DNA of 64,000 nucleotides from positions 372,001-436,000 of the forward strand of contig JACMJZ010000012.1 of assembly GCA_014380365.1 (NCBI GenBank). The letters are read 5' to 3'. Both the position numbers and the translations under genes were made by a program. Shown piece after piece: positions 3,919 to 61,553 of this stretch; position 1 is the first letter of the stretch, and each line of letters begins with the position of its first letter. The notes under the pieces were generated by a model that was given only the letters and a program-made list of their open reading frames with translations, had not been told where the DNA came from and did not search any database. Source of the stretch: Pyrinomonadaceae bacterium (lineage in GTDB: Bacteria > Acidobacteriota > Blastocatellia > Pyrinomonadales > Pyrinomonadaceae).

Positions 3919-4007
3919 CTCTCCCGAGCCTCGCTTTCAACTATGGTTATAGAGCGTGAAGTCCTGGAATAAGGCTGGCAATATTGCCTAGCGATATGCC
4001 TAACAAA

Positions 4008-4569
4008 GAGAACAGGTCTATAAGCCGAATTCTGTTCTCCGATCTCAGATTTCAAATCTCAAATTTGAGATCCCAAATCTGAGATCTGAAAACTGAGACC
4101 GGAGTGGCGATCATTCATCTAGTCCAACTGTTGCCAGATTGGATCAAGCGATCTACCCGGAGGTCGTATCCCGATGTATCGGGATTCGGGCGGGCAGCCC
4201 TGGTGACGCCTCCCTATTTGATCTTGCACTGCGAGGAGTTTGCCTGGCCGTATATGTCACCACATACGCCGGTGCGCTCTTACTTTAAGCCCCGAAGGGC
4301 CGCACCGTTTCACCCATCACCGCGCGTTCGAATCCCGAATCTCTCAATCCGCGATTCTATTGAGATCTCAAAAGAAATCTCAAGAGCGTGGCTGGTCTGT
4401 TCTCTGTTGCACTTGTCGTCGTCCGATTGCTCGAACGCCCCGCCGTTAGCGGGCTCGCTGCCCTGTAGTGTTCGGACTTTCCTCTCCTGGGTAACTCAAG
4501 TCTGGTATTTCAGATGAATCCGAAAACTGACGATTTGAGATGCCAGCAGCGACCGCCCAACCTGTTCTC
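4008..4569 (-). ncRNA. rnpB: RNase P RNA, enlarged bacterial type A
   Basis: The minus strand carries the universal RNase P signatures: GAGGAAAGTCCGAAC at 4484-4470, then ACAGGGCAGCGAG, GTGCAACAGAGA, GGGTGAAACGGTGCGG, a GTAAGAGCGCACCG arm, and the 3' AGAATTCGGCTTATAGACC at 4033-4015. The ends are set by a perfect P1 helix, GAGAACAGG (4569-4561) with CCTGTTCTC (4016-4008). At 562 nt it exceeds the usual 350-420 nt. The extra length sits in the 5' P3 region, the P12 arm and a 3' arm around 4036-4103 built of GATCTCAAATTTGAGAT-like units. RNase P RNA is the catalytic subunit that trims tRNA 5' leaders. Confidence 0.95.
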
Positions 4570-15225: not shown

Positions 15226-17544
15226 TTATGGCTTCCTTACTTTGTGCACCGACCTAACGCGGCCCGGCGACTGTGGGCCTCTGCTGTCGTCGGCTGTCAC
15301 TCTACCGTCCTGCATATTGAGGGTCAAACGACCGCCTTCAGTGCTTCCCTTCTCCGCGTCTTCAACTCTTGCCGGATTGCCTTTGAGCACCGCAACTTTG
15401 CTAGCGGTGGTGTACTCGACCCAATCGCCCGTGCCTTTTCTGCCCGGCTGAGTGAGCACAACGCTTCGCTGGGCCACAGTCTTTTCGACTTCGCTCGAGT
15501 CCTTGCGAAGATAGACGTCCGCAACTCCGCCGGTAACCCTGTCGGTTTCCTGGCGAATGTCGACCTCACCTTCGTAGTGCAACGTGCGATTAGGATCGGA
15601 ATACGACATCGAGTTTGCTGTGGCGAACACCGGCACCACTGCGCTCCCGGCTCCTGTGTTTCGCGCGTTGTAGACCTGACTCTGCACGCGCCCGTTCGCA
15701 TCCATTTTCTTTTCGTTCATGTAGATCGTGAGTTTGTCGGCGCGAATGAAGTTGTCGTCCTGCCAGGCGCGCGCATTGCCGTTATAAATCGCCACGCCGC
15801 TGTCGCGATGAAACTCGCCTCGGTCGCTGACGATGTAAACAGGGCTCTTAACTTTTGAAAAAGGCACGGCCCCGTTTGTCTGTTCCTGGCTGTAATAGGT
15901 CGTCGCGGTTTTCCCCCGACTGTAGGAGACCTTGCTGGCCAGGTTGGAATCGAGTTCGATTGCTTTCGTCCGCGCGCGCGCGTCCCAGACAGTCGGCTCG
16001 CCGCCGCGCAGGCGAATCGTCTGGTCATCAGCGGTATATGAAATGTTATGAGCGATACCGTTGCGATCGTTCTCGTTAAACTTGGCATCGCCCTGCGCGT
16101 CGGTACGCTGGATGGCCTGTGTATCTTTGACAAAGACGGCAGTCATTTTCTGCGAGGTCAGAACGCGGGTTCCCCTATCCTGGACCTTTTGCACGGGCTC
16201 GATCACTGCCTTCGCCCCGCCGGTGGCGGCAAAGCTACGGGCGAGGTTCCCGGCTTCAAAGAAGTCGCAATCGATGCGCGGCGCCGTCAGCGTTTGGTTG
16301 TCAGCCTTTTCGTTCTTTACCACCGGTTCGACAAATAACTCGGCGTTGCCCACGGCTTCGGCCTTGTCGAGATCGCGACCATTCGTGCGCCAGATTAGTT
16401 TGACTGCATCCGCGGTGAGCCGCTTGTTAGTGGCTCGAGGGTCGCTGGCTTTGGATTTGGGCGCGGAGAGATTAATCACAGAGCGGCCTTCAGTTCGCAT
16501 CTGTTTCATCAAACTGCGCTCACCCTGCGCTTGAAACAAGACTTCAATCATGCTCGCCCCGGTTAGTTGCAAATCAGAATCCGAGTCCAGGGTTCTCGCC
16601 GACGCATCACGCATCGCATAGCCCTTCTCCAGTTGCTGATCCTTATCAAAAAAGAAATCCATGTCGGCGGACCTTACTTCAGCGGCGCGCCCTTCCTGCA
16701 TCGAGCGCAGATACGAGTTGCCGCGTATCTCCACCTTTTGCACCTGCTTCTTCTCGCTCAACGCTGCATAAAGGCTGTCGCCGCTCATGAGGTCGCGATC
16801 CTGTTCTGTCGTTACCCCACCCGAGAAAGATAGTTTCTTTCCTTCCTGCTCAAATAACGCGTGCGCTGCGCGGATGGTTACGGGACGCGCGCGCGATGAC
16901 GCCTTCGCCTTCGGATCCTTTAGCGCTTCGGGGGCCACCGTAATTTCAACATCTTTCTTGAGCTCCAGCTTCTTACTCTTCGACTCAACTACAGCGCCGG
17001 TTGAGTGGCCCGAAACGTTTTCGCGCTCGAAGGAAATCGCCGCATCTGTTTGCGCCACTTCGCTGTCCTTGATCGCGAAGTTATAGGCAATCGACTCCGT
17101 ATTTACCTTCAGGGCGTCCTTCGTTTCAATCTTGACGCTGCCCTGGAAAGTCAGAATGGAGTTAGCCTGATCGTAGATAGCTTTGTTGGCGCTAATTTGA
17201 TCCGGCTTATCGCCCTCGGAGGGATAAACGGAAAGATTGACTTGATCGAGCTCATGATGGCCGTCGGAGAAGGTGACGTCGCGCGCTGCGCGGATCCAAA
17301 GGTAAAGACGATCGCCCTTCATCATGCGCTGTTCGTAGCCTTCGATTACCCCGGTGATCTCCTTTGAGAGTTCCGGCGTTTCTGACTTGAGCCGGAACGG
17401 CGTGTTATTGCGCAGACGATAATAGGAGATCGCCACAAAGACGAGTGCGGCAATCAGAACCAGCACTGCGCCCGCGCGCGCTACGAGCGGAGCACGCGCA
17501 CGCAAGCCGATAGCGAAAGCTCGTTTTCTGTTGATCTCCTGCAT
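15226..17544 (-). CDS. lptC: LptC/OstA-like LPS export protein, very long
   Basis: About 772 residues from the ATG at 17542-17544; a GTG four codons earlier is equally in frame. A transmembrane anchor (AGAVLVLIAALVFVAISYY) is followed by an LptC-like segment (DRLYLWIRAARDVTFSDGHH, LDQVNLSVYP) and then several OstA-type beta-jellyroll repeats to the C-terminus, such as YSDPNRTLHYEGEVDIRQ and KGTGDWVEYTTASKVAVLKG. LptC is about 190 and LptA about 185 residues in E. coli, so this looks like one polypeptide giving LptC plus an extended LptA-like bridge. It sits before lptB. Confidence 0.85.
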   Translation of the reverse strand: MQEINRKRAFAIGLRARAPLVARAGAVLVLIAALVFVAISYYRLRNNTPFRLKSETPELSKEITGVIEGYEQRMMKGDRLYLWIRAARDVTFSDGHHELDQVNLSVYPSEGDKPDQISANKAIYDQANSILTFQGSVKIETKDALKVNTESIAYNFAIKDSEVAQTDAAISFERENVSGHSTGAVVESKSKKLELKKDVEITVAPEALKDPKAKASSRARPVTIRAAHALFEQEGKKLSFSGGVTTEQDRDLMSGDSLYAALSEKKQVQKVEIRGNSYLRSMQEGRAAEVRSADMDFFFDKDQQLEKGYAMRDASARTLDSDSDLQLTGASMIEVLFQAQGERSLMKQMRTEGRSVINLSAPKSKASDPRATNKRLTADAVKLIWRTNGRDLDKAEAVGNAELFVEPVVKNEKADNQTLTAPRIDCDFFEAGNLARSFAATGGAKAVIEPVQKVQDRGTRVLTSQKMTAVFVKDTQAIQRTDAQGDAKFNENDRNGIAHNISYTADDQTIRLRGGEPTVWDARARTKAIELDSNLASKVSYSRGKTATTYYSQEQTNGAVPFSKVKSPVYIVSDRGEFHRDSGVAIYNGNARAWQDDNFIRADKLTIYMNEKKMDANGRVQSQVYNARNTGAGSAVVPVFATANSMSYSDPNRTLHYEGEVDIRQETDRVTGGVADVYLRKDSSEVEKTVAQRSVVLTQPGRKGTGDWVEYTTASKVAVLKGNPARVEDAEKGSTEGGRLTLNMQDGRVTADDSRGPQSPGRVRSVHKVRKP

Positions 17545-17643
17545 AAGTACTACCACCGGTGACCGCGGACCGGCGACCGTTCAGTCGCGAACCTCGCGTG
17601 CGCTGCGGAGTCACCAATCATGGGTTGCCTCATCGGTCGCCCG

Positions 17644-18195
17644 TCATCGATCTTCCGTCGTCGCTCTTACATCCTGGACCGACAACTGCAAAAACGTTCC
17701 GCCGCCCCAGTTGCTGGTTTCAATCGTGTAAAGCCATGTCGATGCGGCCTTTCAAAACGTTCGCGTGTTCCGCGCCGTTCCACCAAATAGTCTCTAACGG
17801 ACGGCGCTGCGGTCCAGCGACAGTCATCTTCAGATGCCGTTGTCCAATTAAACGTGGTTCCGAGAGGATGCACAAGTGGCGGGCCTGAAAAATTGGCCGG
17901 GGATTGACGGCAGTCCCGGTCGTACCGTCCACGTCGTAGTCGCCATATACGAGGATTGGTCCCCAGCATCAATCGCCCGCAACAAACGCGCGACCGCCTC
18001 GCTCATCCCCAGCATGAGATATGGATCTTGAAGTTGATCGTGGGAAGCATTAAGAGAGTTTTGCGCGGAATGCTCATCGATGCAGTCGCGCGAAATGAGC
18101 AGCGATGCGACGACTGGGGAAACGCGCAAAACGCAAGCGAGCGCAGCGACTTGTTGAGCGTCCTGCTCGCGCCGAATCCAACGTTTGGAGTTCAT
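17644..18195 (-). pseudogene. recJ: recJ pseudogene: both ends kept, middle deleted, frameshifted
   Basis: The minus strand from 18195 begins like RecJ (SKRWIRREQDAQQVAALACV, then a DPYLMLGMSEAVARLLRAID stretch). After DAGDQ the reading frame breaks; one base later the catalytic motif YGDYDVDGTTGTAV continues in another frame. It then jumps straight to the RecJ C-terminal region (RHLKMTVAG, WWNGAEHANVLKGRIDM), breaks again at 17722, and ends FLQLSVQDVRATTEDR with TGA at 17644. The DHHA1 and most of the DHH domain, some 350-400 residues, are missing. RecJ is a 5'-3' single-strand DNA exonuclease. The position next to lptC fits a once-intact gene. Confidence 0.88.
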
Positions 18196-18807: not shown

Positions 18808-19695
18808 TTACCCGGCGTCTGCGGTGATGTAACCGCCGAGCAAGGCGAAGATAATTGCAGCGCCTACTACCAAACGATAAACGACAAAAACGCCAGTGGA
18901 ATGCGTTCGCAGAAATCTCAGTAGAAACCAAATCGACGCGTAGCCCACCAAACCTGAAACGATGGTTGCCACGATCAGCGGAAGATAGGTTCCGTCCGGA
19001 AGCTTGTGTATTGCTTCCCGCAGTTCCAGCAATCCGCTGGCAGCAATTGCCGGAATGGATAGCAAAAATGAAAACCTTGCCGCTGTCTCGCGCGTGAGTC
19101 CGGCAAAGAGTCCGCCCATAATCGTGGATCCCGAACGGCTGGAGCCTGGGATCAACGCCAGCACCTGGGCAAAACCGACGGCCAGTGCGTCGCCAAGGCC
19201 CAGCTCGTTCATCGATCGCCCTCTCTTACCCACCCATTCAGCGAGAGCCAGCAGCAGTCCAACGACAATCATCATCGTCGCGATGACCCAAAGATTTTTC
19301 GTGAAGGTGCCTTCGATCTGTTTCTTAAAGACAAGACCGACCACTGCAACCGGAACTGAACCGATGATGACCAGCCATCCTAACCACGCTTCTGGGGAGA
19401 GCCGCCTACTTCCATCCGTCCGATTTTTTCCGGTGAGGATCGCAAGATGATCCCGCACAAACCCACGAGTGATGTTCGTGATATCTCGCGCGAAATAGAT
19501 CAGAACCGCGAGCAGCGTGCCGAGTTGAATCACAGCAATCGTTGCGGTTGTTTGCTCGGCTTTGAGCGTGGGCTCGATGAAGTTGTAAAGGCCAACGAGG
19601 CGTGCGGCAAAAACCAGGTGCGCGGTGGAGCTGACCGGAATGAATTCGGTTAATCCCTGGACGATGCCCAGGATAATTGCTTGAAAAATGGTCAT
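18808..19695 (-). CDS. uppP: Undecaprenyl-diphosphatase
   Basis: 295 residues with about eight membrane helices. The two BacA/UppP active-site motifs are present: QGLTEFIPVSSTAHLVF (E-rich motif, residues 13-29) and PGSSRSGSTIMGGLFAGLTR (PGxSRSG, about 180-199). The enzyme hydrolyses undecaprenyl diphosphate to recycle the lipid carrier for peptidoglycan and O-antigen. Monocistronic by appearance, flanked by repeats on both sides. Confidence 0.96.
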   Translation of the reverse strand: MTIFQAIILGIVQGLTEFIPVSSTAHLVFAARLVGLYNFIEPTLKAEQTTATIAVIQLGTLLAVLIYFARDITNITRGFVRDHLAILTGKNRTDGSRRLSPEAWLGWLVIIGSVPVAVVGLVFKKQIEGTFTKNLWVIATMMIVVGLLLALAEWVGKRGRSMNELGLGDALAVGFAQVLALIPGSSRSGSTIMGGLFAGLTRETAARFSFLLSIPAIAASGLLELREAIHKLPDGTYLPLIVATIVSGLVGYASIWFLLRFLRTHSTGVFVVYRLVVGAAIIFALLGGYITADAG

Positions 19696-19702
19696 TGATT
19701 AG

Positions 19703-19824
19703 TCGTCAGTGGTCGGTTGTCAGTGGGCAGTTATTCGTTGTCATGTTGTTCGTCGTCAATTTTTCATTACTACCGCTACTCCCTACTGATCACCGACCAC
19801 TGATCACTGACCACTGACCACTGC
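19703..19824. repeat. CAGTGGTCAGTG-type repeat tract
   Basis: Short direct units (GTCAGTGGTCGGTTGTCAGTG; then GATCACCGACCACTGATCACTGACCACTGACC in the opposite sense) flank a central spacer, giving an inverted arrangement between uppP and the dehydrogenase gene. A similar tract is at 61451-61500. Confidence 0.7.
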
Positions 19825-24806: not shown

Positions 24807-25265
24807 ATGAATCTTCCGCTAAGACCTTGCATAGCAATCTGTATCGTTGCGGCTGTTTTGACCCAAACCCCGGGGCGCGAATCGCGGGAAGCGCGCGACC
24901 TCAAGGAACTCTCTCGACTCGAATCAGTCTGGAACGACGCACACCTGCGGGGCGACGCCGAAGCGCTGGACCAACTCTGGGCTGAAGATCTGATAGTGAC
25001 CGTCCCGGACATGCCGCTGATGGACAAGAACGAAGCGCTTTCGTTTGTCCGTTTAGGCAAGATGAAGTTTCGGCGTTATCAAACCTCCGACCTCCGCACG
25101 CGTGTCTACCGCGATACAGCGGTCGTCACGGGACAACTTGCCAGAGAGCGCGAGTCCGCCAGCAAAGAGTTTGAGGACGACTGGCGCTTCACGAAAGTAT
25201 ACGTTCGCCGCAAGGGCCGTTGGCAGGTCGTCGCCTGGCACGGTTCACACGTTGGCACGTCATAG
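24807..25265 (+). CDS. Secreted SnoaL/DUF4440-like protein
   Basis: 152 residues from the ATG at 24807 after AAGAGG. A short signal peptide (NLPLRPCIAICIVAAVLTQ) precedes a single NTF2-like cone domain: LSRLESVWNDAHLRGDAEAL, LWAEDLIVTVPD, and WRFTKVYVRRKGRWQVVAWH at the end, as in DUF4440 proteins. The fold is used as a small-molecule pocket, sometimes enzymatic. The P450 gene starts 10 bp downstream, so the two probably form an operon. Confidence 0.8.
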   Translation: MNLPLRPCIAICIVAAVLTQTPGRESREARDLKELSRLESVWNDAHLRGDAEALDQLWAEDLIVTVPDMPLMDKNEALSFVRLGKMKFRRYQTSDLRTRVYRDTAVVTGQLARERESASKEFEDDWRFTKVYVRRKGRWQVVAWHGSHVGTS

Positions 25266-25275
25266 GCTATTCCCT

Positions 25276-26457
25276 ATGTTCGTCAAAATGTCCGACCTCG
25301 CCCGTCCGAGTTTCAAGGCTGACCCCTATCCGTTCTACGCGCGTTTGCGCGCCGAAGCTCCCGTCTGTGCCACTGAACTGTTGGGCCAGCCGGGGTGGCT
25401 CGTTACTCGCTACACCGACGTGTTCGCGGTTCTGAAAGACGAGCGCTTGCTCAAAGATTGGCGGCCGGCGACGCGCTGGGTCCATCGCTTTGCCGGTGCG
25501 ATAACGCGCAACATGCTCAACCAGGACGGCCCGGACCACTTGCGGCTGCGCGCTCTCGTTCACAAGGCATTCACTCCGCATCTGGTCGAGCAACTGCGTT
25601 CACGCGTCGAAAGCGTTTGCGACGAGCTGCTGGAAAAGTTGGAAACTGACGGGCGTATGGATCTGATGAGCGGTTATGCGTTGCCGCTGCCGCTTACGGT
25701 CATATCGGAGTTACTGGGCATCCCTCCTGAGATCCGGGACCGCCTGCACGGCTTATCGCGCAGCACTTTTTCAGCTACGAACATTCTCGGCGTATTGCGT
25801 TCTCTCCCGGATCAGAGACTGCTGATTAGCCGCATTCGCAAGTTGGTGGCGGAGCGGCGGCGCGAACCGCGTGATGACCTGATTACGGCACTGGTGCAGG
25901 CGGAGGAGGCGGGCGACCGACTCAGCGAACCGGAACTAGTCGCTACCATTGCGCTGCTGCTCGTCGCTGGTTATGAGACAACGGTAAACCTGATCGGCAG
26001 TGGCGCATTAGCTCTCATCCAACATCCCGAGCAGCGCCAGAAGCTAATGCGGGAGCCGACGCTCGCGCCTTCCGCCATCGAAGAGGTGTTGCGTTACACC
26101 AGCCCGCTTGATATGGCGACACAGCGTTTTGCGCGCGAGGATATGACGCTTGATTCCGTGAAAATTTCCCAGGGTGAGTTGGTCCTCGCTGTGCTTGGAT
26201 CCGCCAATCATGACGAGACTCAGTTTGCCAATCCGGAAACTTTCGACATCATGCGACAACCAAACAAGCACTTGGCCTTTGGTCAGGGCGCGCACTTCTG
26301 CCTCGGCGCGCCCCTCGCGCGGCTCGAAGGTCAAATTGCATTGACGACGCTCTTCCGCCGCTTCCCTGACTTGCGCCTGGCGCAAGTGCGGGAAAGTTTG
26401 CGTTGGCGCAAGAGTCTGATCATCCGTGGCCTGGAAGAACTGCCAGTGGCTATTTAG
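25276..26457 (+). CDS. Cytochrome P450 (bacterial class I type)
   Basis: 393 residues, the normal size of soluble bacterial P450s. I-helix LLLVAGYETTVNLI (acid-alcohol pair ETT), K-helix EEVLR (ExxR) and haem-binding FGQGAHFCLGAPLARLEG with the Cys ligand are all present. The ATG at 25276 or one four codons later fits the family start (LARPSFKADPYPFYARLR). It should hydroxylate a small hydrophobic substrate with a ferredoxin partner; none is encoded nearby. It follows a DUF4440 protein by 10 bp. Confidence 0.93.
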   Translation: MFVKMSDLARPSFKADPYPFYARLRAEAPVCATELLGQPGWLVTRYTDVFAVLKDERLLKDWRPATRWVHRFAGAITRNMLNQDGPDHLRLRALVHKAFTPHLVEQLRSRVESVCDELLEKLETDGRMDLMSGYALPLPLTVISELLGIPPEIRDRLHGLSRSTFSATNILGVLRSLPDQRLLISRIRKLVAERRREPRDDLITALVQAEEAGDRLSEPELVATIALLLVAGYETTVNLIGSGALALIQHPEQRQKLMREPTLAPSAIEEVLRYTSPLDMATQRFAREDMTLDSVKISQGELVLAVLGSANHDETQFANPETFDIMRQPNKHLAFGQGAHFCLGAPLARLEGQIALTTLFRRFPDLRLAQVRESLRWRKSLIIRGLEELPVAI

Positions 26458-26513
26458 ATTCTCCCTACACTCGGTTAGCTCGGGGTTCGCGAATGATGCA
26501 TCGCTAAGACAAA

Positions 26514-26542
26514 GTCAGAACCGGGAGCGGTAGCGGCCGGGT
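26514..26542. repeat. Dispersed element F7, copy B
   Basis: GTCAGAACCGGGAGCGGTAG then CGGCCGGGT; differs from copy A (8177-8205) at one base. It is joined directly to F3 copy 3. Confidence 0.75.
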
Positions 26543-26543
26543 A

Positions 26544-26592
26544 GTGGCACGCGCATCTTGCGCGTGGTTCACTGGCGAGACGCCCGTGCTAC
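26544..26592. repeat. REP-like family F3, copy 3
   Basis: GTGGCACGCGCATCTTGCGC GTGG followed by the facing CGCCCGTGCTAC half. Inverted relative to copy 1. Confidence 0.8.
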
Positions 26593-26705
26593 TTCGCACA
26601 GTCATCCAAGGAACAAAGATGGGTTTGCAGCGTGATAACGAATTTCCCATCATCATTTCCGTTGTTGCGGCACTTCAGAAATTCTTCGTCAATGAAAGGA
26701 AAGCT

Positions 26706-27026
26706 ATGAAACGTACAATCCTCTTAACTCTATTGATTCTGGTTGCCGGATTCGCAGCAGGTATGAAAACAGCGGGCCAGGACGGCGCCGATGGAGAAAC
26801 CAAGCAGGCCGCCGCGAAGTGGGAGTATTTGGCTGTCGCTGGGCCGAGTAACGTGAACTTCACGCCGACGGGAAACCCACGCATGCGAAAGGAAGACAGT
26901 GGATTCGGGCGCGAGGCATTCGTGCTCGAACAACATCTCGACAAGCTCGGCGCAAAAGGATGGGAATTAGTTTCCGTCTCCGGGCCGCCCCTGGACCCAG
27001 CTTACTACTTCAAGCGCCGCAAGTGA
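26706..27026 (+). CDS. Small secreted DUF4177-like protein
   Basis: 106 residues from the ATG at 26706 after GAAAGGAAA. It opens with a signal peptide (KRTILLTLLILVAGFAAG). The mature part matches the DUF4177 pattern: KWEYLAVAG near the start, LDKLGAKGWELVSVSG, and a final AYYFKRRK. DUF4177 domains are small alpha/beta units of unknown function. A longer frame upstream overlaps the F3 repeat and lacks a signal peptide. Confidence 0.75.
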   Translation: MKRTILLTLLILVAGFAAGMKTAGQDGADGETKQAAAKWEYLAVAGPSNVNFTPTGNPRMRKEDSGFGREAFVLEQHLDKLGAKGWELVSVSGPPLDPAYYFKRRK

Positions 27027-27140
27027 CCTCAAGACATTTGCGGGTTGTCAGAACCCCGACGAGTCGGGGTAGCGGGCGGGCCTCACGCTGGTGGCGTGAA
27101 AGAACGGTCTGTGCAGGTCACCTTGCGTCCGGAGGATGCC

Positions 27141-27213
27141 GATCCACGAACCACACGAAATAACTCGAATTAAGAATCTCTTTTCGTGCAGCTTCGTGTG
27201 ATTTCGTGGATCG
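27141..27213. repeat. Dispersed palindrome family F2, copy A
   Basis: GATCCACGAACCACACGAAA faces CTTCGTGTGATTTCGTGGATC across about 30 bp. Other copies are at 42621-42698 and 56196-56265. Confidence 0.85.
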
Positions 27214-27504
27214 TTCTTAATTTTTCAGCAGCCTCTAGCTTCAGTTTGTCCGCGATCCCTCCTCGTTGGTCCCTGGCCATCTGCCCCACGGAACAGCTTC
27301 GACTTTTCGGAGTCTGAACCTGCATGTACGCAAGGAGGAACGTTCCCTGCGACCAGCTCTACTTCGCGAACCTTTGCGTACCCTTTGCGACCTTATCTCA
27401 TTTCTCATTGGGTTTTCGGACCCGGGAAGACCACCGATGGAAAATGAAACATCAATGGAAAATGAAATATGAAACATGAGAAATGGAAAATGTCTTCTTC
27501 TGGC

Positions 27505-27590
27505 TTCGTGCCAACTGCCCCTGCCATCTGCCCCTGCCGCCTACCACTTCCCCTGCTGACTGCTCCTGCCGACTGCTCCTGTTATACAAT
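27505..27590. repeat. Low-complexity CTGCC tract
   Basis: Degenerate direct repeats of ctgccatctgcccctgcc and ctgactgctcctgccgactg upstream of the acetyltransferase. A related tract with ccgtctgctcctgccgtctg is at 61519-61553. Confidence 0.6.
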
Positions 27591-27598
27591 CCGCCAAC

Positions 27599-28174
27599 AT
27601 GGACTGGCAACGCTTACCTACAATCGACACGAGCCGTCTCTTGCTGCGGAGAATCTCCGCAGCCGACGTTGATGATTTCTTTAAGATTTTTTCCGACCCG
27701 GAAGTGATGCGTTATTGGAGCACTCCACCGATCCCAAACAGAGACGCCGCAAGTAAACTCATCGGCGAAATCCACGCAGGGTTCGAACGTCGAGAGTCGT
27801 TGAAGTGGGGCATAGCGTTGCGCACTGACGATTCCCTTATAGGAAGCGTCACGCTCTTTCACCCAGACTTCACTCATCGTCGAGCCGAAATTGGTTACGC
27901 GTTGGGACGCGGCCATTGGGGACAGGGCTACATGCAGGAAACGCTGAAGGCAGTACTCACCTACGCTTTCGACGTGCTTAACTTTCATCGCCTTGAAGCT
28001 GATGTTGACCCGCGCAATGCCGCTTCGGTCCGGACGTTGGAGCGTTTGGGGTTTCAACGCGAAGGATATCTGCGGGAACGGTGGCACGTTAACGGTGAAA
28101 TCCAGGACGCCTTCTTTTACGGTTTGATTAGACCCGACTGGGACAAAGCGCATCCCTCAACCACCAACTCATAA
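27599..28174 (+). CDS. GNAT acetyltransferase, RimJ/RimL type
   Basis: 191 residues. SRLLLRRISAADVDDFFKIF is the RimJ/L start; the acetyl-CoA-binding motif A is RAEIGYALGRGHWGQGYMQE (Q/R-x-x-G-x-G/A form), and FHRLEADVDPRNAASVRTLE RLGF is the family motif B. Such enzymes acetylate ribosomal-protein N-termini or small amines. The ATG directly follows a CTGCCCCTGCC-type low-complexity tract. Confidence 0.9.
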   Translation: MDWQRLPTIDTSRLLLRRISAADVDDFFKIFSDPEVMRYWSTPPIPNRDAASKLIGEIHAGFERRESLKWGIALRTDDSLIGSVTLFHPDFTHRRAEIGYALGRGHWGQGYMQETLKAVLTYAFDVLNFHRLEADVDPRNAASVRTLERLGFQREGYLRERWHVNGEIQDAFFYGLIRPDWDKAHPSTTNS

Positions 28175-28340
28175 GCAGACTCGCGAAGCGCAATCAGACA
28201 CCTTGTACGGGTTCACTCTCTGAGCCAGCGGTTCACGGCAGACGATAAAGCTCAGAGTAGGGCTAAACCGTCTGGAATCTTCCAAAAGCTCCAAGGGGAG
28301 TCTCCTTTTTGTTAACTGATAAAGAATATGCCCAGAAGCG

Positions 28341-28785
28341 GATCATCACAGATTCTTTGGACGTTAATCGGGATCGACGCATTCCCGGATCCTTCTGGAG
28401 CTATCCTAACAAAGATCTGTTCCCTGCTAGGCTCCGCGAAACGATCACGATGGACTTAGCTCCGACTTCCACTGATATCAACGTGATCACAATAATTCTC
28501 AGTCCGGGCATAGTTAAATCCGCTTCTGTATGAGTCCGTACAACCACGATCTCAGTGGATTATCCCTAATCTCGATCGAGATCGAAGCGATCACGACAAG
28601 TTTCACGCTGATCACAGCAAAGATCAGAGTTCTTCCAACAACTTCGCTGCAATCTCATTTCTGATCGGAATAAACTCAGCGGTGATCGGGAGGATCTCAG
28701 TCGTCACTGATGCGAGGTTGTCTGTGATTAAACCGATCTCTCTCGGGATCGGAGTTACATCTACTGTGATCGAAACGATCAGAGT
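28341..28785. repeat. 21-bp degenerate minisatellite, very rich in GATC
   Basis: Nineteen GATC sites fall in about 440 bp, against fewer than two expected by chance. Many are spaced at multiples of 21: 28443/28485/28548; 28589/28610; 28663/28684/28747/28768; 28693/28735/28777. The unit thus encodes seven residues. On the plus strand it reads as Ile-rich heptads (AVIGRIS, SVIKPIS, TVIETIR), on the minus strand as TTEILPI, TAEFIPI and similar. No gene is convincing here; a minus-strand frame at 28624-28863 could be a relic of a repeat protein. Confidence 0.7.
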
Positions 28786-28959
28786 CAAAAATGGACGAGA
28801 GTCTCGTCCAATCCAGCCAGGAATCGCTTCGATTGTTTCCGTGAACGAAAGTTCGCTTGGCAAAACGCGAGCTATGCTACGCTGTACGCGTACCTACATC
28901 GCAAGAGCTTTATTTGTAAATCTCGTTTTGTATGGGAAATCCCGTCGCCCCAGGGGAAA

Positions 28960-29430
28960 ATGCCTGACCTGCTTGTAAATCTTTTGAAGCTGCCGGCGCT
29001 CGATGCCAGTTTGAGCGGATTGGAAAGTGACGGGATTGTGGTTCGTCGCGCCCAGCCTTTCGAGATCACGCGCACGCGCTTATTTATTGAGAGGTCCTTC
29101 TCCATCCCGTGGGCTGATGAGATCTCAGTTGGCTTCGCGAACAAGCCTGTTTCCGTCTACCTTGCGGTTGTCGAACGAGAGATCGTCGGCTTCGCTGGAT
29201 ACGAGTGCACGCGCAGGGGCTTCTTTGGGCCAAGCGGCGTGATTGAAAACATGCAGGGCCGCGGCGTTGGCAAAGCGTTGTTGACTGCCAGCCTTTGGGG
29301 GTTGCGCGAGCTCGGATATGTCTATGCCATTATCGGGCGAGCTGGACCCATTGGATTTTACGAGAAGACAGTCGGAGCCATCGTGATCCCTGACAGCGAC
29401 CCGGGAATTTACACTAACCTTCTGAAGTAA
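28960..29430 (+). CDS. GNAT family N-acetyltransferase
   Basis: 156 residues from the ATG at 28960 after AGGGGAAA. An N-terminal lead (PDLLVNLLKLPALDAS) is followed by a GNAT fold: VYLAVVEREIVGFAGYECT, the acetyl-CoA motif NMQGRGVGKALLTASL, then GYVYAIIGRAGPIGFYEKTV and a C-terminal GIYTNLLK. The GRAGP..FYEK block is shared with a subfamily of uncharacterised acetyltransferases. Substrate unknown. The P450 gene follows 61 bp later. Confidence 0.85.
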   Translation: MPDLLVNLLKLPALDASLSGLESDGIVVRRAQPFEITRTRLFIERSFSIPWADEISVGFANKPVSVYLAVVEREIVGFAGYECTRRGFFGPSGVIENMQGRGVGKALLTASLWGLRELGYVYAIIGRAGPIGFYEKTVGAIVIPDSDPGIYTNLLK

Positions 29431-29491
29431 TGCCCACGATCTGACAGTTCGCGGCAACTTCTTTTTCGCTTCGCAGACCCGCGTCAAACAC

Positions 29492-30880
29492 ATGCAACAC
29501 TCCGGAGACCTTTCGACAGCGCTACCTGGGAAGAAGCGGCAGCCGCGTCCGCCCGGGCCGACAGGCACGCTGATCCAGGGCGTCATGCCGGAGTTCACCC
29601 GGGACAGTCTCGCCTTTATTACTCGTTGCCGAGACTACGGTGACGTGGTGCGCATGCGTTTCCTGTATCAGCGCGTCTATTTTCTCTACAACCCCAACGA
29701 TATCGAGTCGGTGCTTTCAATTAACGCCAAAAACTTCATCAAGGCGCGGACGCTGCGCACACCTTTTTTCCAGCGGCTAGTTGGCAATGGGTTGTTGACA
29801 AGCGAGGGCAACGACTGGCGACGTCAGCGCCGTTTGGCCCAACCAGCATTTCACCGGCAACGGATCAGCGGTTACGGGGATGTAATGGTGGAGTATGCCG
29901 AGCGCTTGATGACGCAATGGCGTACAGGAGAAGAGCGCGACATTTATCGCGACATGATGCGCCTCACTCTGGAGATTGCCGCTAAGACACTATTCAACGC
30001 TGACGTTTCCGGCGACGCAGACAAAGTAGGACAAGTGCTGTCGCGGATGGTGAAGCCGTTCGCATCGCAAGCAACGTTCAAATGGATTCTGGACAACCGG
30101 CTACCGACGCGGGCGCACAAAGAGTTCTTCTCCGCCGCGAACGAAATCGATGAGCTTATCTATAGAATCATCGGGGAACGCCGAGCGAGTGGTCGTGATG
30201 AAGGTGACCTACTGTCGATGCTCCTGGCCGCACATGACGAGGACGATGGCAGCCAGATGACGGACCGGCAGTTGCGCGACGAATTGATGACGATCTTTCT
30301 GGCGGGCCATGAAACCACCGCGCTGACGCTTTCCTGGACCTGGTATCTGCTGGCCCAGAACCCCGAAGTCGAGCATAAGTTTCACGCTGAACTGGATGAG
30401 GTGCTAGACGGAAGACTTCCAGCAGTCGCCGATCTGGGTCGTTTGAAATATACCGAGATGATCGCCAAGGAGTCGATGCGTCTCTACCCTCCTGCTTACG
30501 GTCTTGGACGCGAAGCGATTGAGGAATGCGAAATCGGCGGTTACCGGGTGCCCGCCAAGGCGCAGGTGTTCATGTTCCAATGGGCACTGCACCGCGACCC
30601 GCGTTACTTTGACGACCCGGCGCGCTTTGATCCGAACCGCTGGACCGAAGACTTCACGACCGCCCTCCCAAAGTATGCCTACTTCCCTTTCGGCGGCGGC
30701 CCACGTGCCTGCATTGGCAACTATTTCGCGATGATGGAGATTGTGCTGGCGCTGGCGACTATCGGCCAACGCTTCAGGTTCTCGCTCTCACCGGACCATG
30801 CGGTTAGCTTGCTCCCGGCGATGTCCCTGCGACCGAAGGATGGGATCAAGGTGCGGGTTGAGAAGCGCCGACCGAGGTAG
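29492..30880 (+). CDS. Cytochrome P450 (class E, CYP102/CYP4-like haem domain)
   Basis: 462 residues. N-terminal Pro-rich RQPRPPGPTG, C-helix WRRQRRLAQPAFH, I-helix FLAGHETTALTLSW, K-helix AKESMRLYPPA, PERF-like DPARFDPNRW and the haem loop FPFGGGPRACIGNYFA are all canonical. There is no transmembrane anchor and no fused reductase. This eukaryote-like class E type differs from the first P450 in the window. It probably acts on a lipophilic substrate with an unlinked reductase. Confidence 0.93.
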   Translation: MQHSGDLSTALPGKKRQPRPPGPTGTLIQGVMPEFTRDSLAFITRCRDYGDVVRMRFLYQRVYFLYNPNDIESVLSINAKNFIKARTLRTPFFQRLVGNGLLTSEGNDWRRQRRLAQPAFHRQRISGYGDVMVEYAERLMTQWRTGEERDIYRDMMRLTLEIAAKTLFNADVSGDADKVGQVLSRMVKPFASQATFKWILDNRLPTRAHKEFFSAANEIDELIYRIIGERRASGRDEGDLLSMLLAAHDEDDGSQMTDRQLRDELMTIFLAGHETTALTLSWTWYLLAQNPEVEHKFHAELDEVLDGRLPAVADLGRLKYTEMIAKESMRLYPPAYGLGREAIEECEIGGYRVPAKAQVFMFQWALHRDPRYFDDPARFDPNRWTEDFTTALPKYAYFPFGGGPRACIGNYFAMMEIVLALATIGQRFRFSLSPDHAVSLLPAMSLRPKDGIKVRVEKRRPR

Positions 30881-30917
30881 AAACCAACACTCTTGGCCGC
30901 TGCGGCTTACTCATTCT

Positions 30918-30979
30918 CACCCGGTTTCAACCGGGTGAACGTGCCGCCAATGGAATCTCTCCCAACCGTTTCAACGGTT
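30918..30979. repeat. Left palindrome pair of the Y1 transposase element (F6)
   Basis: Two perfect hairpins: CACCCGGTTTCAACCGGGTG at 30918-30937 and AACCGTTTCAACGGTT at 30964-30979. The inner one contains the transposase stop codon. The same two hairpins occur in inverted order at 31502-31563. Confidence 0.88.
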
Positions 30980-31423
30980 TTCCTCGTCGCGCCATTCCAG
31001 TCCATACCGCTTAACAAAAATCTCATACTCCTGCGCAAAACTTCTCTTTCGGTGGTGCTCCTCCTGACGAGCAATGTAGTTGGCGACTCTACTCACATCC
31101 GAATGCGAGACTGAGAAAGCCCCGTAGCCCCGGCCCCAGGCGAACCTACCTTTCATCAGATGGCGATGATTAATCCAATGTGAAGAGCTCCCCTTCAGAA
31201 GTTGTATCACTTGTTCGATCGTTAGATTTGTCGGAAGGTCAATGAGCGCGTGGGTGTGGTCCGCATTGAAGTAATTAGTCTTCATATAGATGCCTTTCTC
31301 ATGAGAATACTCTGACAGATTTACCGAAGCTTGTACCGCCGCTCGCTTATCCAGCATTGGTTCGCGGCGAAGAGTCTCCCAAATCAGGTGAAGCCAACAA
31401 CGAGAGTAAGAGTGGCTTGACAT
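30971..31423 (-). mobile_element. IS200/RAYT-like Y1 transposase gene, intact
   Basis: 150 residues with the Y1 (HUH) fold: HLIWETLRREPML, the HUH motif in NADHTHALIDLP, KGSSSHWINHRHL, WGRGYGAFSVS, and the helix VANYIARQEEHH with the likely catalytic Tyr. This family nicks single strands at hairpins. The gene is framed by inverted pairs of palindromes at 30918-30979 and 31502-31563, so the whole unit of about 646 bp looks like a mobile element or a REP-dispersing unit. ATG at 31423. The stop lies in the left inner hairpin. Confidence 0.85.
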
Positions 31424-31501
31424 TAACGGAGTTTCCTTTCTCTATCGGGTGTTAGAGGAACTCTGTCAGCATGGGCTTGCAGTGAGGCTGAATGGAAGGG
31501 A

Positions 31502-31563
31502 AACCGTTGAAACGGTTGTCTCAACGTATTGCCAATACTCTTGCACCCGGCTGAAGCCGTGTG
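31502..31563. repeat. Right palindrome pair of the Y1 transposase element (F6)
   Basis: AACCGTTGAAACGGTT at 31502-31517 and CACCCGGCTGAAGCCGTGTG at 31544-31563, the mirror image of the left pair. The spacers of the two pairs share GCCAAT-type sequence, which supports common origin. Confidence 0.85.
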
Positions 31564-31673
31564 TGAATGAGGGACGAAGCAGAAGCCCATGACGAAAGTG
31601 TCGAGTTACGGCGAGTGCTCGGGGATTCTCACCAGGAAGGTCCCCAGACTCTGTTAAGAGAAAAGATCAGCTG

Positions 31674-32522
31674 CTACTCAAGCGCGCGCGCGATGCGAGA
31701 CCACTCTGAAAGCGTGAGCGTTTCCGCGCGTCGCTGCAAATCAACTTCAGACTGACAAAGCACAACGCTGGCGCCGCCGTGACTCTTGACGACCTCCTGA
31801 AGCGGCGACGGCGCGTTGCGTAAGTTATTCAAAATCGTCTTCCGTCTCTGGGCAAATCCCGCGCTGACAATCTTCCACAGCAGTTTTTCATCCCGGACCT
31901 CCGCCGCAACGCGCTCGCGCAACTTCAATCTCAGCACGCTACTCCAGACTTTTGGAGCCGGACGAAACGCGTGTGGCGCGACATCAAACAGCTTCTCCGT
32001 CTCACAGTAGGCCTGGACAAAAACGGAAAGGTAGCCTCGCTCCGCCGAACCCGGCCCCGCGGTGATGCGCTCGCCAACCTCTTTCTGCAACATCAAGACC
32101 ATCTCGCTCACGCACTGGCGTTGCTCGATCAATCTTTGCAGAATTGCTGTGCCGATGTTGTAAGGAAGATTGGCGACCAGGCGAGCGCGCTTGGCCGGAT
32201 GAATCGCAGTGCAGACGTCGGTGACCAAGGCGTCGCCTTCGACGAGCGTGAAGTTCTTTTTGTGGCTGAAAGTGTCGATTAGGAGGGGGATTAGATTCCG
32301 GTCAAACTCGATTGCAACCAGACGCCCGGCCTTCTCCAGGAGAGGCGCCGTCAGCGCTCCCCTGCCCGGGCCAATTTCGAGAATTGTCTCGTCACCTGTT
32401 GGATCCAACGCCTCGACGATGCGTTGAATGACTCGTCTATCGGTTAGGAAGTTTTGACCAAAACGCTTTGAGGGACGATGGTCAACGGCGAGGGGATGAA
32501 TCGTAGACAACTTCCTATTCAT
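31674..32522 (-). CDS. rsmA: 16S rRNA (adenine1518/1519-N6)-dimethyltransferase
   Basis: 282 residues. RFGQNFLTDRRVIQRIVEAL is the KsgA start; the SAM motif is LEIGPGRGALTAPLL, the acidic loop LVAIEFDR, and the catalytic NLPYNIG. It dimethylates two adenines near the 3' end of 16S rRNA. The ribD gene ends 10 bp before its start, so the two are probably co-transcribed, with ribD first. Confidence 0.96.
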   Translation of the reverse strand: MNRKLSTIHPLAVDHRPSKRFGQNFLTDRRVIQRIVEALDPTGDETILEIGPGRGALTAPLLEKAGRLVAIEFDRNLIPLLIDTFSHKKNFTLVEGDALVTDVCTAIHPAKRARLVANLPYNIGTAILQRLIEQRQCVSEMVLMLQKEVGERITAGPGSAERGYLSVFVQAYCETEKLFDVAPHAFRPAPKVWSSVLRLKLRERVAAEVRDEKLLWKIVSAGFAQRRKTILNNLRNAPSPLQEVVKSHGGASVVLCQSEVDLQRRAETLTLSEWSRIARALE

Positions 32523-59971: not shown

Positions 59972-61447
59972 TTACAACGCCTGCAATTTCGTCTTCAATC
60001 TTTCGTTGACTACCTTTGGATTCGCTTTCCCCTGCGACGCCTTCATCACCTGCCCCACAAAGAAACCGAATAAACTCTCTTTGCCCGCCCTATAGCTTTC
60101 GAGTTGTTGCGGGTTCGCCGCCAACACTTGATCGATCAGACTCTCGATCTCGGTCGCGTCGCTGAGTTGCGCCATGCCCTGCTCTTCGATAATTGCCGCC
60201 GCGTTCTTGCCGGTTCGAAACATCTCGACCAGCACATCCTTGCCTTGCTTGCCACTAATCTTCCCCTCATCGATCAACTTGATGAACGCGCCCAGATCCG
60301 CCGCCGACACCGGTGACAAACTCGCCGAAAGCCCAGCGCTTTCCAGTTCGCGCAAGAGTTCGGAACGTATCCAATTGGCGGCGGTTCGCGGGTTCCCCGA
60401 AGTTTCTACTGCTTTCTCGTAGTAGTCAGCCAGCGAACGTTCTGAAGTCAGTTGCGACGCATCGCTAAACGAAAGCTGATACTGCTCCATGAAACGCCGT
60501 CGCCGCGCTTCCGGCAGTTCCGGCATGTCGGACCGCACTCCCTGCACAAATTCAGCCGAGACGATCAAAGGCGGCAGGTCAGGCTCCGGAAAATATCGAT
60601 AGTCATGCGCTTCCTCTTTGGAGCGCATCACCCGCGTTTCTCCAGCGCGTTCGTCCCACAGTCGCGTCTCCTGCTGCAAGCGGCCACCCGATTCAAGTAC
60701 TCCGATTTGACGGCGGACCTCAAACTCGATCGCGCGATGCATAAACCGGACAGAGTTGAGATTCTTCAATTCAACTTTGGTTCCCAGCTCTTCTCCAATT
60801 TTCCTGACGGACACATTTGCTTCGCAGCGCAGGTTTCCCTTTTCCATGTCCGCATCGGAAGCGCCAACCCACTGCAGTGCGCGCCTTACGTGATTGACGT
60901 AATCGTAGGCTTCCCAGGCGGTGCGGAAGTCCGGCTCGGTCACGATCTCAGCCAGCGGTGTGCCGGCTCGATTGAGATCGATGTAGGAGTAACGATCAAT
61001 ATCCGGCAGACCCTCATGCACGTTTTTGCCTGCATCTTCTTCAAGGTGAAGGCGTGTGATGGCAATCGTCTTCGGGACCCATTCAATCGGATGGCCAGCC
61101 TCGTCCCGTTCGGCTGTCATGATTTCGAGCTCGCCATTCGCGGAGAATGGCTTATCGAATTGCGAGATCTGATAGCCCTTCGGCAAATCGGGATAGAAAT
61201 AGTTCTTGCGCGAAAAAATCGACTGCTCGTTTATATGTAACCCGAGCGAAAGAGCGGCACGGGCGCCGAGTTCGACGGCGCGGCGATTCAGGACAGGCAA
61301 CGCACCTGGCAAACCCAGACAGACCGGGCAGGTATTGGAGTTAGGCTCATCGCCAAAGCGCGTCGAGCAGCCACAGAAGATTTTTGACTCAGTGCTCAAT
61401 TGAGCATGAATCTCTAATCCAATAATCGTTTCCCAGGCGTTAGTCAT
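59972..61447 (-). CDS. gatB: Aspartyl/glutamyl-tRNA amidotransferase subunit B
   Basis: 491 residues. IGLEIHAQLSTESKIFCGCS is the GatB start with zinc Cys; CPVCLGLPGALPVLN has the second pair, and KNYFYPDLPKGYQISQFD and RAGTPLAEIVTEP are conserved. The C-terminal YqeY-like helical domain ends KANPKVVNERLKTKL. GatB binds mischarged Glu-tRNA(Gln) or Asp-tRNA(Asn) in the GatCAB complex. gatA and gatC are not adjacent. Confidence 0.97.
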   Translation of the reverse strand: MTNAWETIIGLEIHAQLSTESKIFCGCSTRFGDEPNSNTCPVCLGLPGALPVLNRRAVELGARAALSLGLHINEQSIFSRKNYFYPDLPKGYQISQFDKPFSANGELEIMTAERDEAGHPIEWVPKTIAITRLHLEEDAGKNVHEGLPDIDRYSYIDLNRAGTPLAEIVTEPDFRTAWEAYDYVNHVRRALQWVGASDADMEKGNLRCEANVSVRKIGEELGTKVELKNLNSVRFMHRAIEFEVRRQIGVLESGGRLQQETRLWDERAGETRVMRSKEEAHDYRYFPEPDLPPLIVSAEFVQGVRSDMPELPEARRRRFMEQYQLSFSDASQLTSERSLADYYEKAVETSGNPRTAANWIRSELLRELESAGLSASLSPVSAADLGAFIKLIDEGKISGKQGKDVLVEMFRTGKNAAAIIEEQGMAQLSDATEIESLIDQVLAANPQQLESYRAGKESLFGFFVGQVMKASQGKANPKVVNERLKTKLQAL

Positions 61448-61450
61448 TGG

Positions 61451-61553
61451 TGTGTTGTCAGTGGTCAGTTGTCAGTGGCCAGTGGCCAGTTATCGGCGGT
61501 CGATGGGTCTCGCTTTGATCCGACTGCCGTCTGCTCCTGCCGTCTGCTCCGAC
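61451..61553. repeat. CAGTGGTCAGT / CTGCTCCTGCCGT repeat tract
   Basis: Short degenerate units TGTCAGTGGTCAGTTGTCAG and CCGTCTGCTCCTGCCGTCTG fill the gap between two genes. They recall the tracts at 19703-19824 and 27505-27590. Confidence 0.65.

Follow-up and report, generated by a model that had tools for sequence, protein, structure and literature searches.

Plasmid iterons are direct repeats of about 17–22 bp that are spaced about two helical turns apart, and clusters of GATC sites, such as that of the E. coli oriC, are bound by SeqA. Intergenic tandem repeats of a heptamer, TAACTGA, are reportedly present in the Beggiatoaceae. The GGGAATC repeats of Xanthomonas are also intergenic heptamer tandem repeats, and the paper on them cites a proposal that heptamers may owe their length to the size of the polymerase active site, seven matching the DNA segment inside it (PMC4692102). 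The relevant part of the SPADE survey ranks heptamers first in abundance among the intergenic tandem repeats of prokaryotes, notes that nothing points clearly to their function, and says that repeat periods favour multiples of three even without protein repeats (PMC6344855).

The window analysed here is a stretch of 64 kb, bases 372001–436000 of contig C20 in a 4.98 Mb draft genome of 34 contigs. It contains an array of 21 bp repeats, C20w. Like bacterial minisatellites and VNTR loci, this array and others in the genome are head-to-tail intergenic repeats of tens of bp with varied age and decay, and a tandem head-to-tail unit within the 10–100 bp or so of bacterial minisatellites is present beyond chance. 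They differ in that unrelated units have a single length, 21 bp, and in that one family is found at four loci. The heptamer repeats are similar in being non-coding, with one preferred length and many sequences, however the 21 bp arrays have no 7 bp sub-period, are longer and far more decayed, and were not found in the sampled parts of heptamer-rich relatives. As in plasmid iterons, direct repeats are spaced two helical turns apart, but these are chromosomal, at a dozen loci, with units unrelated between loci and no replication gene beside the arrays examined. Dense GATC sites in a genome with a Dam-family methylase recall clusters of the oriC type, from which the arrays differ in being intergenic beside ordinary genes and in that like arrays exist without GATC. 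The open-access literature searched held nothing on a class of 21 bp intergenic repeats, nor on GATC clusters with repeats that was to the point.

The array and its repeat unit

Array C20w occupies the middle of a 785 bp spacer between two acetyltransferase genes (Table 1). The sequence-only reading had recognised a 21 bp minisatellite with 19 GATC sites between 28341 and 28785, and both the period and the GATC excess are borne out. The 19 sites lie between 28341 and 28780, against a mean of 2.6 per 445 bp and a highest count outside the array, in the 64 kb, of 10; in simulated sequences with the dinucleotide content of the region itself this number was reached in 2 of 5000. Self-match at lags 21 and 42 is 0.354 and 0.357, respectively (mean over lags 0.249, sd 0.037), and the lag 21 value was reached in none of 5000 such simulations. 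Lags 7 (0.235) and 14 (0.232) do not rise above background.

The periodicity is not even along the array. Local lag 21 identity is only 0.22–0.32 before about 28460, therefore the first 150–200 bp are barely periodic, and it rises to 0.39–0.46 at about 28520–28760, with the strongest 21 bp period at about 28540–28790. Tandem Repeats Finder with a minimum score of 30 does not report the array, since it is too decayed. The mean column identity is 0.62 and the units are 60–70% identical to the consensus.

Table 1. Positions of the array, its units and neighbouring genes in the window, and of the related arrays on other contigs
Feature	Position	Strand	Remarks
Array C20w	28341..28788	.	degenerate 21-bp tandem array, 19 GATC, non-coding
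Core with strongest period	28539..28788	.	local lag-21 identity up to 0.46
GNAT acetyltransferase (Acetyltransf_3), upstream neighbour	27599..28174	+	ends 166 bp before first GATC
GNAT-like acetyltransferase, downstream neighbour	28960..29430	+	
Unit	28364..28384	-	profile score 11.3 bits
Unit	28468..28488	-	profile score 16.5 bits
Unit	28539..28559	+	profile score 15.1 bits
Unit	28572..28592	-	profile score 22.1 bits
Unit	28593..28613	-	profile score 12.6 bits
Unit	28634..28654	-	profile score 13.6 bits
Unit	28663..28683	+	profile score 15.0 bits
Unit nearest to consensus	28684..28704	+	profile score 23.3 bits
Unit	28726..28746	+	profile score 14.2 bits
Unit	28768..28788	+	profile score 21.4 bits
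GATC-family array C3	near 20.9-21.2 kb of contig C3		between genes
GATC-family array on C5	near 21.2-21.7 kb of contig C5		between genes
GATC-family array C17	near 4.2-4.8 kb of contig C17		between genes

The consensus unit of the GATC family, GATCGGAACGATCTTAGTCGA, was derived from 47 units, 10 from the window and 37 from three other arrays. It contains two GATC, which accounts for the high GATC density of the array, and is made up of two near-inverted halves, GATCG and CGATC, with a further eight bases. Because of these halves the two strands look alike and the apparent heptads are seen on both. Both orientations of the unit occur within arrays, and many units have lost one or both GATC. The GATC sites had been placed in phases that are multiples of 21; the period is real, but the sites fall mainly on residues 7, 8, 16, 17 and 18 modulo 21. 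This spread over more than one phase is due to the presence of two GATC per unit, 9 and 12 bp apart, and to slips in the register. Intervals inside the array that depart from 21 bp are 29, 41, 54 and 83.

Over 28341–28790 the six frames contain 10, 5, 4, 9, 13 and 6 stops, therefore C20w is not a gene. The suggestion that the unit encodes heptads on both strands holds for short pieces only. A scan of 25000–32000 against Rfam had no matches over the gathering score. The folding of the array beats that of shuffled sequences (z of -2.6 as RNA and -3.2 as DNA); a structured RNA, or selection for a hairpin, is not supported, as the paired positions of the palindrome do not covary.

Four loci with the GATC family

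A pattern of three GATC with spacings of 9 and 12 has 11 matches in the genome and its reversed control has none. The matches correspond to three arrays on other contigs (Table 1) and two isolated matches. With a 42-position profile of the family at E≤1, the whole genome yields the four array loci and three isolated weak places, which have no array in their surroundings; a fifth array of the family was not found in this genome. The units are only slightly more alike within arrays (similarity 0.584) than between arrays (0.557), with none of 2000 label permutations giving as large a difference.

The four loci have this unit in common and no common flanks, as all of the significant blastn matches between them fall inside the arrays. 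A MITE or other mobile element as the carrier is not supported, there being no common flanks or terminal inverted repeats at all copies. The nearest called genes are ordinary, with Pfam assignments to GNAT, CNNM/CBS, histidine kinase, fn3, PfkB and dienelactone hydrolase (one neighbour only for C3).

An excess of 21 bp arrays in non-coding DNA

Local self-match at lags of 5–129 was determined for 60 stretches of the genome, 1.26 Mb including the window. A simple codon-usage caller identified 810 genes, making 74% of the sample coding; it missed the GNAT gene at 27599, and the 'non-coding' labels are approximate. At z≥5 there are 77 non-coding periodic windows. Lag 7 accounts for 34 of them, lag 14 for 7, lag 21 for 8 and lag 42 for 3. 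The lags of the coding periodic windows are spread over multiples of 3. For lags of at least 15 and z≥7, multiples of 21 make up 10 of 12 non-coding windows (9 distinct arrays) versus 0 of 11 coding windows (Fisher p 7e-5), and at z≥5 they make up 11/26 and 12/100 respectively (p 0.001). The sample that gave this excess is also the one that first drew attention to it.

The catalogue of these arrays has 12 members, ten from the 1.26 Mb sample together with C3 and C17. Their consensus units are mostly unrelated in sequence. Matches at 13 or more of the 21 positions are seen only among the four GATC arrays and in one pair with A320; random pairs match at 9.7 positions on average and at 13 at most. 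In seven of the 12 arrays the consensus has no GATC. The regularity is therefore the length of 21 bp, and GATC belongs to one family.

Intervals between units are exact multiples of 21 in 130 of 147 cases. Mean column identity is 0.91 in A256, 0.87 in A258 and 0.81 in A297, compared with 0.62 in the window, which indicates that the arrays are of different ages. Array A297 (L297:2300-3000; 322.3-323 kb of contig C34) is young, with at least 23 units in perfect 21 bp register. It is directly upstream of a sodium:dicarboxylate symporter gene and is the best candidate for copy-number variation. Most arrays have uneven conservation along the unit. Selection is one possible cause, but founder units that were unequal would give the same picture. 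In nine of the 12 arrays every one of the six frames is interrupted by stops; A256, A258 and A254b each have at least one stop-free frame, which is no proof of translation.

Strand symmetry exceeds that of column-permuted controls in six arrays, C20w, C3, C17, A320, A254a and A254b (0–2 of 150 permutations as high). C5a is a borderline case (10 of 150), and by this test the other five have no such symmetry. A consensus-level test picks out another subset, with P below 0.02 for C5a, A320, A254a and A254b only, and values of 0.11 for C20w, 0.41 for C3 and 0.79 for C17. Over the 12 arrays the mean excess self-match is +0.269 at lag 21 and slightly negative at lags 7 (-0.007) and 14 (-0.010). On average there is no helical sub-period of 10–11 bp (excess -0.006 and -0.017).

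Distribution in relatives and other bacteria

A DNA-level search with the array found matches at E≤0.01 in 3 of 59 genomes, one of them the genome itself; in the other two they cover 25–28 bp only. The profile matched 16 of the 59 at E≤0.1, again including its own, in a search with stricter filters and at most 109 candidates scored per genome, so that weak arrays could be missed. None of the 26 loci in relatives from this search (L073–L098) has an array; they have at most 5 profile sites per 300 bp, versus 9–18 in the arrays of this genome. The GATC family was thus not found at either level in the 58 other genomes, 15 of which are of the same genus. The spacer could not be followed by orthology, as the upstream GNAT gene is found in relatives, with the downstream gene beside it in 0 of 19 loci.

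No non-coding 21 bp arrays were seen in the sampled parts of four relatives, G015 (340 kb), G017 (180 kb), G034 (180 kb) and G004 (100 kb). At the density of this genome, about 0.8 per 100 kb, these 800 kb should contain about 6. In the same scan 7 bp repeats were common in G004, G017, G034 and G043, and not in G015. The samples of other genomes yielded just three non-coding windows at lag 21 or 42: one at lag 42 in the 340 kb of G015 and one at lag 21 in 40 kb of G045, both repeat-coding-like by eye, and a third, with z 5.3, at lag 21 in the 200 kb from Nannocystis. A degenerate intergenic array of 31 bp, about three helical turns, is present in G004, of the same genus (L391:17701), and could parallel the 21 bp arrays.

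The GATC-spacing pattern is more widely distributed, being present in 25 of 162 genomes of the class and in at least 120 stretches of a public genome collection. GATC at the 9 and 12 spacing is also what isoleucine heptads look like, and among the stretches listed most are inside long open frames. Coding heptads that use GATC imitate the array pattern at L219 (G064), L220 (G065), L159 and most other pattern loci. Viral contigs contain 66 stretches with the pattern; the 25 listed from these, which have the shortest covering frames, are all in open frames of at least 119 codons.

Non-coding 21 bp arrays with two GATC per unit also occur in another phylum, in two Myxococcota genomes: L203:20-160 of Nannocystis sp. 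RBIL2 and L184:1-420 of a Myxococcales MAG, where 21 bp units without GATC stand next to those with it. The two arrays match the family profile weakly, at best with 15.7 bits in L184 and 10.0 in L203. This likeness is treated as convergence because the search pattern itself selected for GATC.

Origin of the arrays

The best explanation of C20w, with a probability of roughly 60%, is that it is an old, decayed, non-coding intergenic minisatellite, one of four GATC-family arrays and of at least 12 arrays of 21 bp, which was amplified locally in 21 bp steps and has then been decaying. Each array would have been born by local tandem amplification, through replication slippage or unequal exchange, in steps equal to about two turns of B-DNA. 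The step of 21 may come from the amplifying machinery, or from selection for spacing on one face of the helix. A short copied piece would have founded the GATC family at its four loci. Subsequent decay through point mutation would account for the copy in the window being faint when others are still 80–90% identical.

Neutral amplification alone leaves unexplained the preference for 21 over 18, 24 and 28 and the dyad symmetry in about half of the arrays. Some constraint on spacing is somewhat favoured by the low error count, 17 of 147 intervals, in arrays that have diverged strongly, with the caveat that indel-rich arrays are harder to find. It is possible, and put forward tentatively, that a process in this lineage fixes non-coding arrays at exactly 21 bp whatever their sequence. 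This might be an enzyme-driven amplification in 21 bp steps, or the work of a protein that organises the chromosome and accepts many sequences provided that its sites are two helical turns apart. The GATC arrays would then be the family that has spread to several loci.

A related but somewhat doubtful possibility is that the arrays are bound by protein as plasmid iterons or a centromere of the chromosome are. Binding would then be cooperative and on one face of the DNA, at sites of approximate dyad symmetry with a spacing of two helical turns, and the arrays would be kept for that reason. The exact 21 bp spacing of strongly diverged arrays in those 130 intervals, the strand symmetry of six arrays beyond permuted controls, and the uneven conservation along the unit are consistent with this. 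However, the consensus differs among arrays, which means that one sequence-specific protein cannot read them all. The average array has no 10–11 bp sub-period, dyad symmetry is absent from five and for C20w, C3 and C17 is not significant at the consensus level, and the lack of covariation between paired positions also argues against it. The neighbouring genes are ordinary, with no rep or par gene among those scanned beside the four GATC arrays (one neighbour for C3).

As 21 is three times 7, the arrays might instead be expanded and diverged copies of the 7 bp tandem repeats that are common in this genome. The non-coding periodic windows are mostly at lags 7 and 14, as noted above. This origin is nevertheless improbable, in that the excess self-match of the arrays at these two lags is slightly negative, non-coding lags in the 1.26 Mb sample include no 28, 35, 49 or 56, and the one 28 bp array found, in a smaller sample (L247), is plainly made of heptamers. 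The sampled parts of the heptamer-rich relatives G034, G017 and G004 also show no non-coding 21 bp arrays.

Intergenic 7 bp (and 14 bp) tandem repeats of differing heptamers at 3981-4098, 17476-17668, 19641-19823, 27381-27581 and 61341-61490 are the other strong periodicities of the window, and are of a kind common throughout the genome. Some heptamer direct repeats occur as inverted pairs round a short loop, for example (GTCCAAA)n ... (TTTGGAC)n, with the heptamer varying by locus (L262:19156, L260:12796, L256:2011, L250:12811, L251:9811 and L244:18961). These pairs would form long intergenic hairpins.

The sequence-only reading also offered a clustered methylation or binding target, which is possible. 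The genome has one Dam-family N6-adenine methyltransferase (C8:218416-219150; TIGR00571, 182.6 bits against a cut-off of 114.85), for which the closest solved structures are DpnII methylase and E. coli Dam, and the GATC of the arrays may well be methylated. With the GATC run of C20w far over background, 19 methylated sites could in principle act as a local epigenetic or replication-timing mark. The same reading had named a similar GATC density across the genome, with no 21 bp period, as what would refute the repeat itself; the density is not similar elsewhere, GATC being slightly below Markov expectation in the 1.26 Mb (6979 observed and 7927 expected, a ratio of 0.88). The idea of such a mark is, however, highly improbable. 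A Dam-family match was present in 25 of 39 searched genomes, including this one, with 20 over the cut-off, and GATC arrays were seen in this genome only, thus array occurrence does not follow the presence of the methylase. Most of the 21 bp arrays have no GATC, and the loss of one or both sites from many units also counts against the mark. Since seven of the 12 arrays are without GATC and Dam is found in genomes without arrays, GATC is a property of one repeat family and does not explain why the arrays exist.

The other suggestion of the earlier reading, a repeat protein with isoleucine-rich heptads whose gene has decayed, was rejected as barely credible: 21 bp corresponds to seven codons, several frames of the unit are open, and elsewhere in bacteria GATC at this spacing is mostly inside long open frames among the matches listed, but all six frames have stops in C20w and in nine of the 12 arrays overall, spacings occur that are not multiples of 3, the column information in the isoleucine frame shows no pattern by codon position (5.3, 5.4 and 5.7 bits), units are in both orientations within arrays, and the 21 bp excess is in the non-coding periodicities, not the coding ones.

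Conclusions

A repeat unit can by itself give rise to a cluster of GATC in one window, which calls for caution in reading such clusters. In bacterial intergenic DNA the known example of a preferred repeat length is the heptamer, and its cause is still open according to the relevant part of the SPADE survey (PMC6344855). A second preferred length, of 21 bp, with unrelated units, no 7 bp sub-period and a patchy occurrence among relatives, would offer a way to separate a slippage step, a constraint on helical phase and binding from one another.
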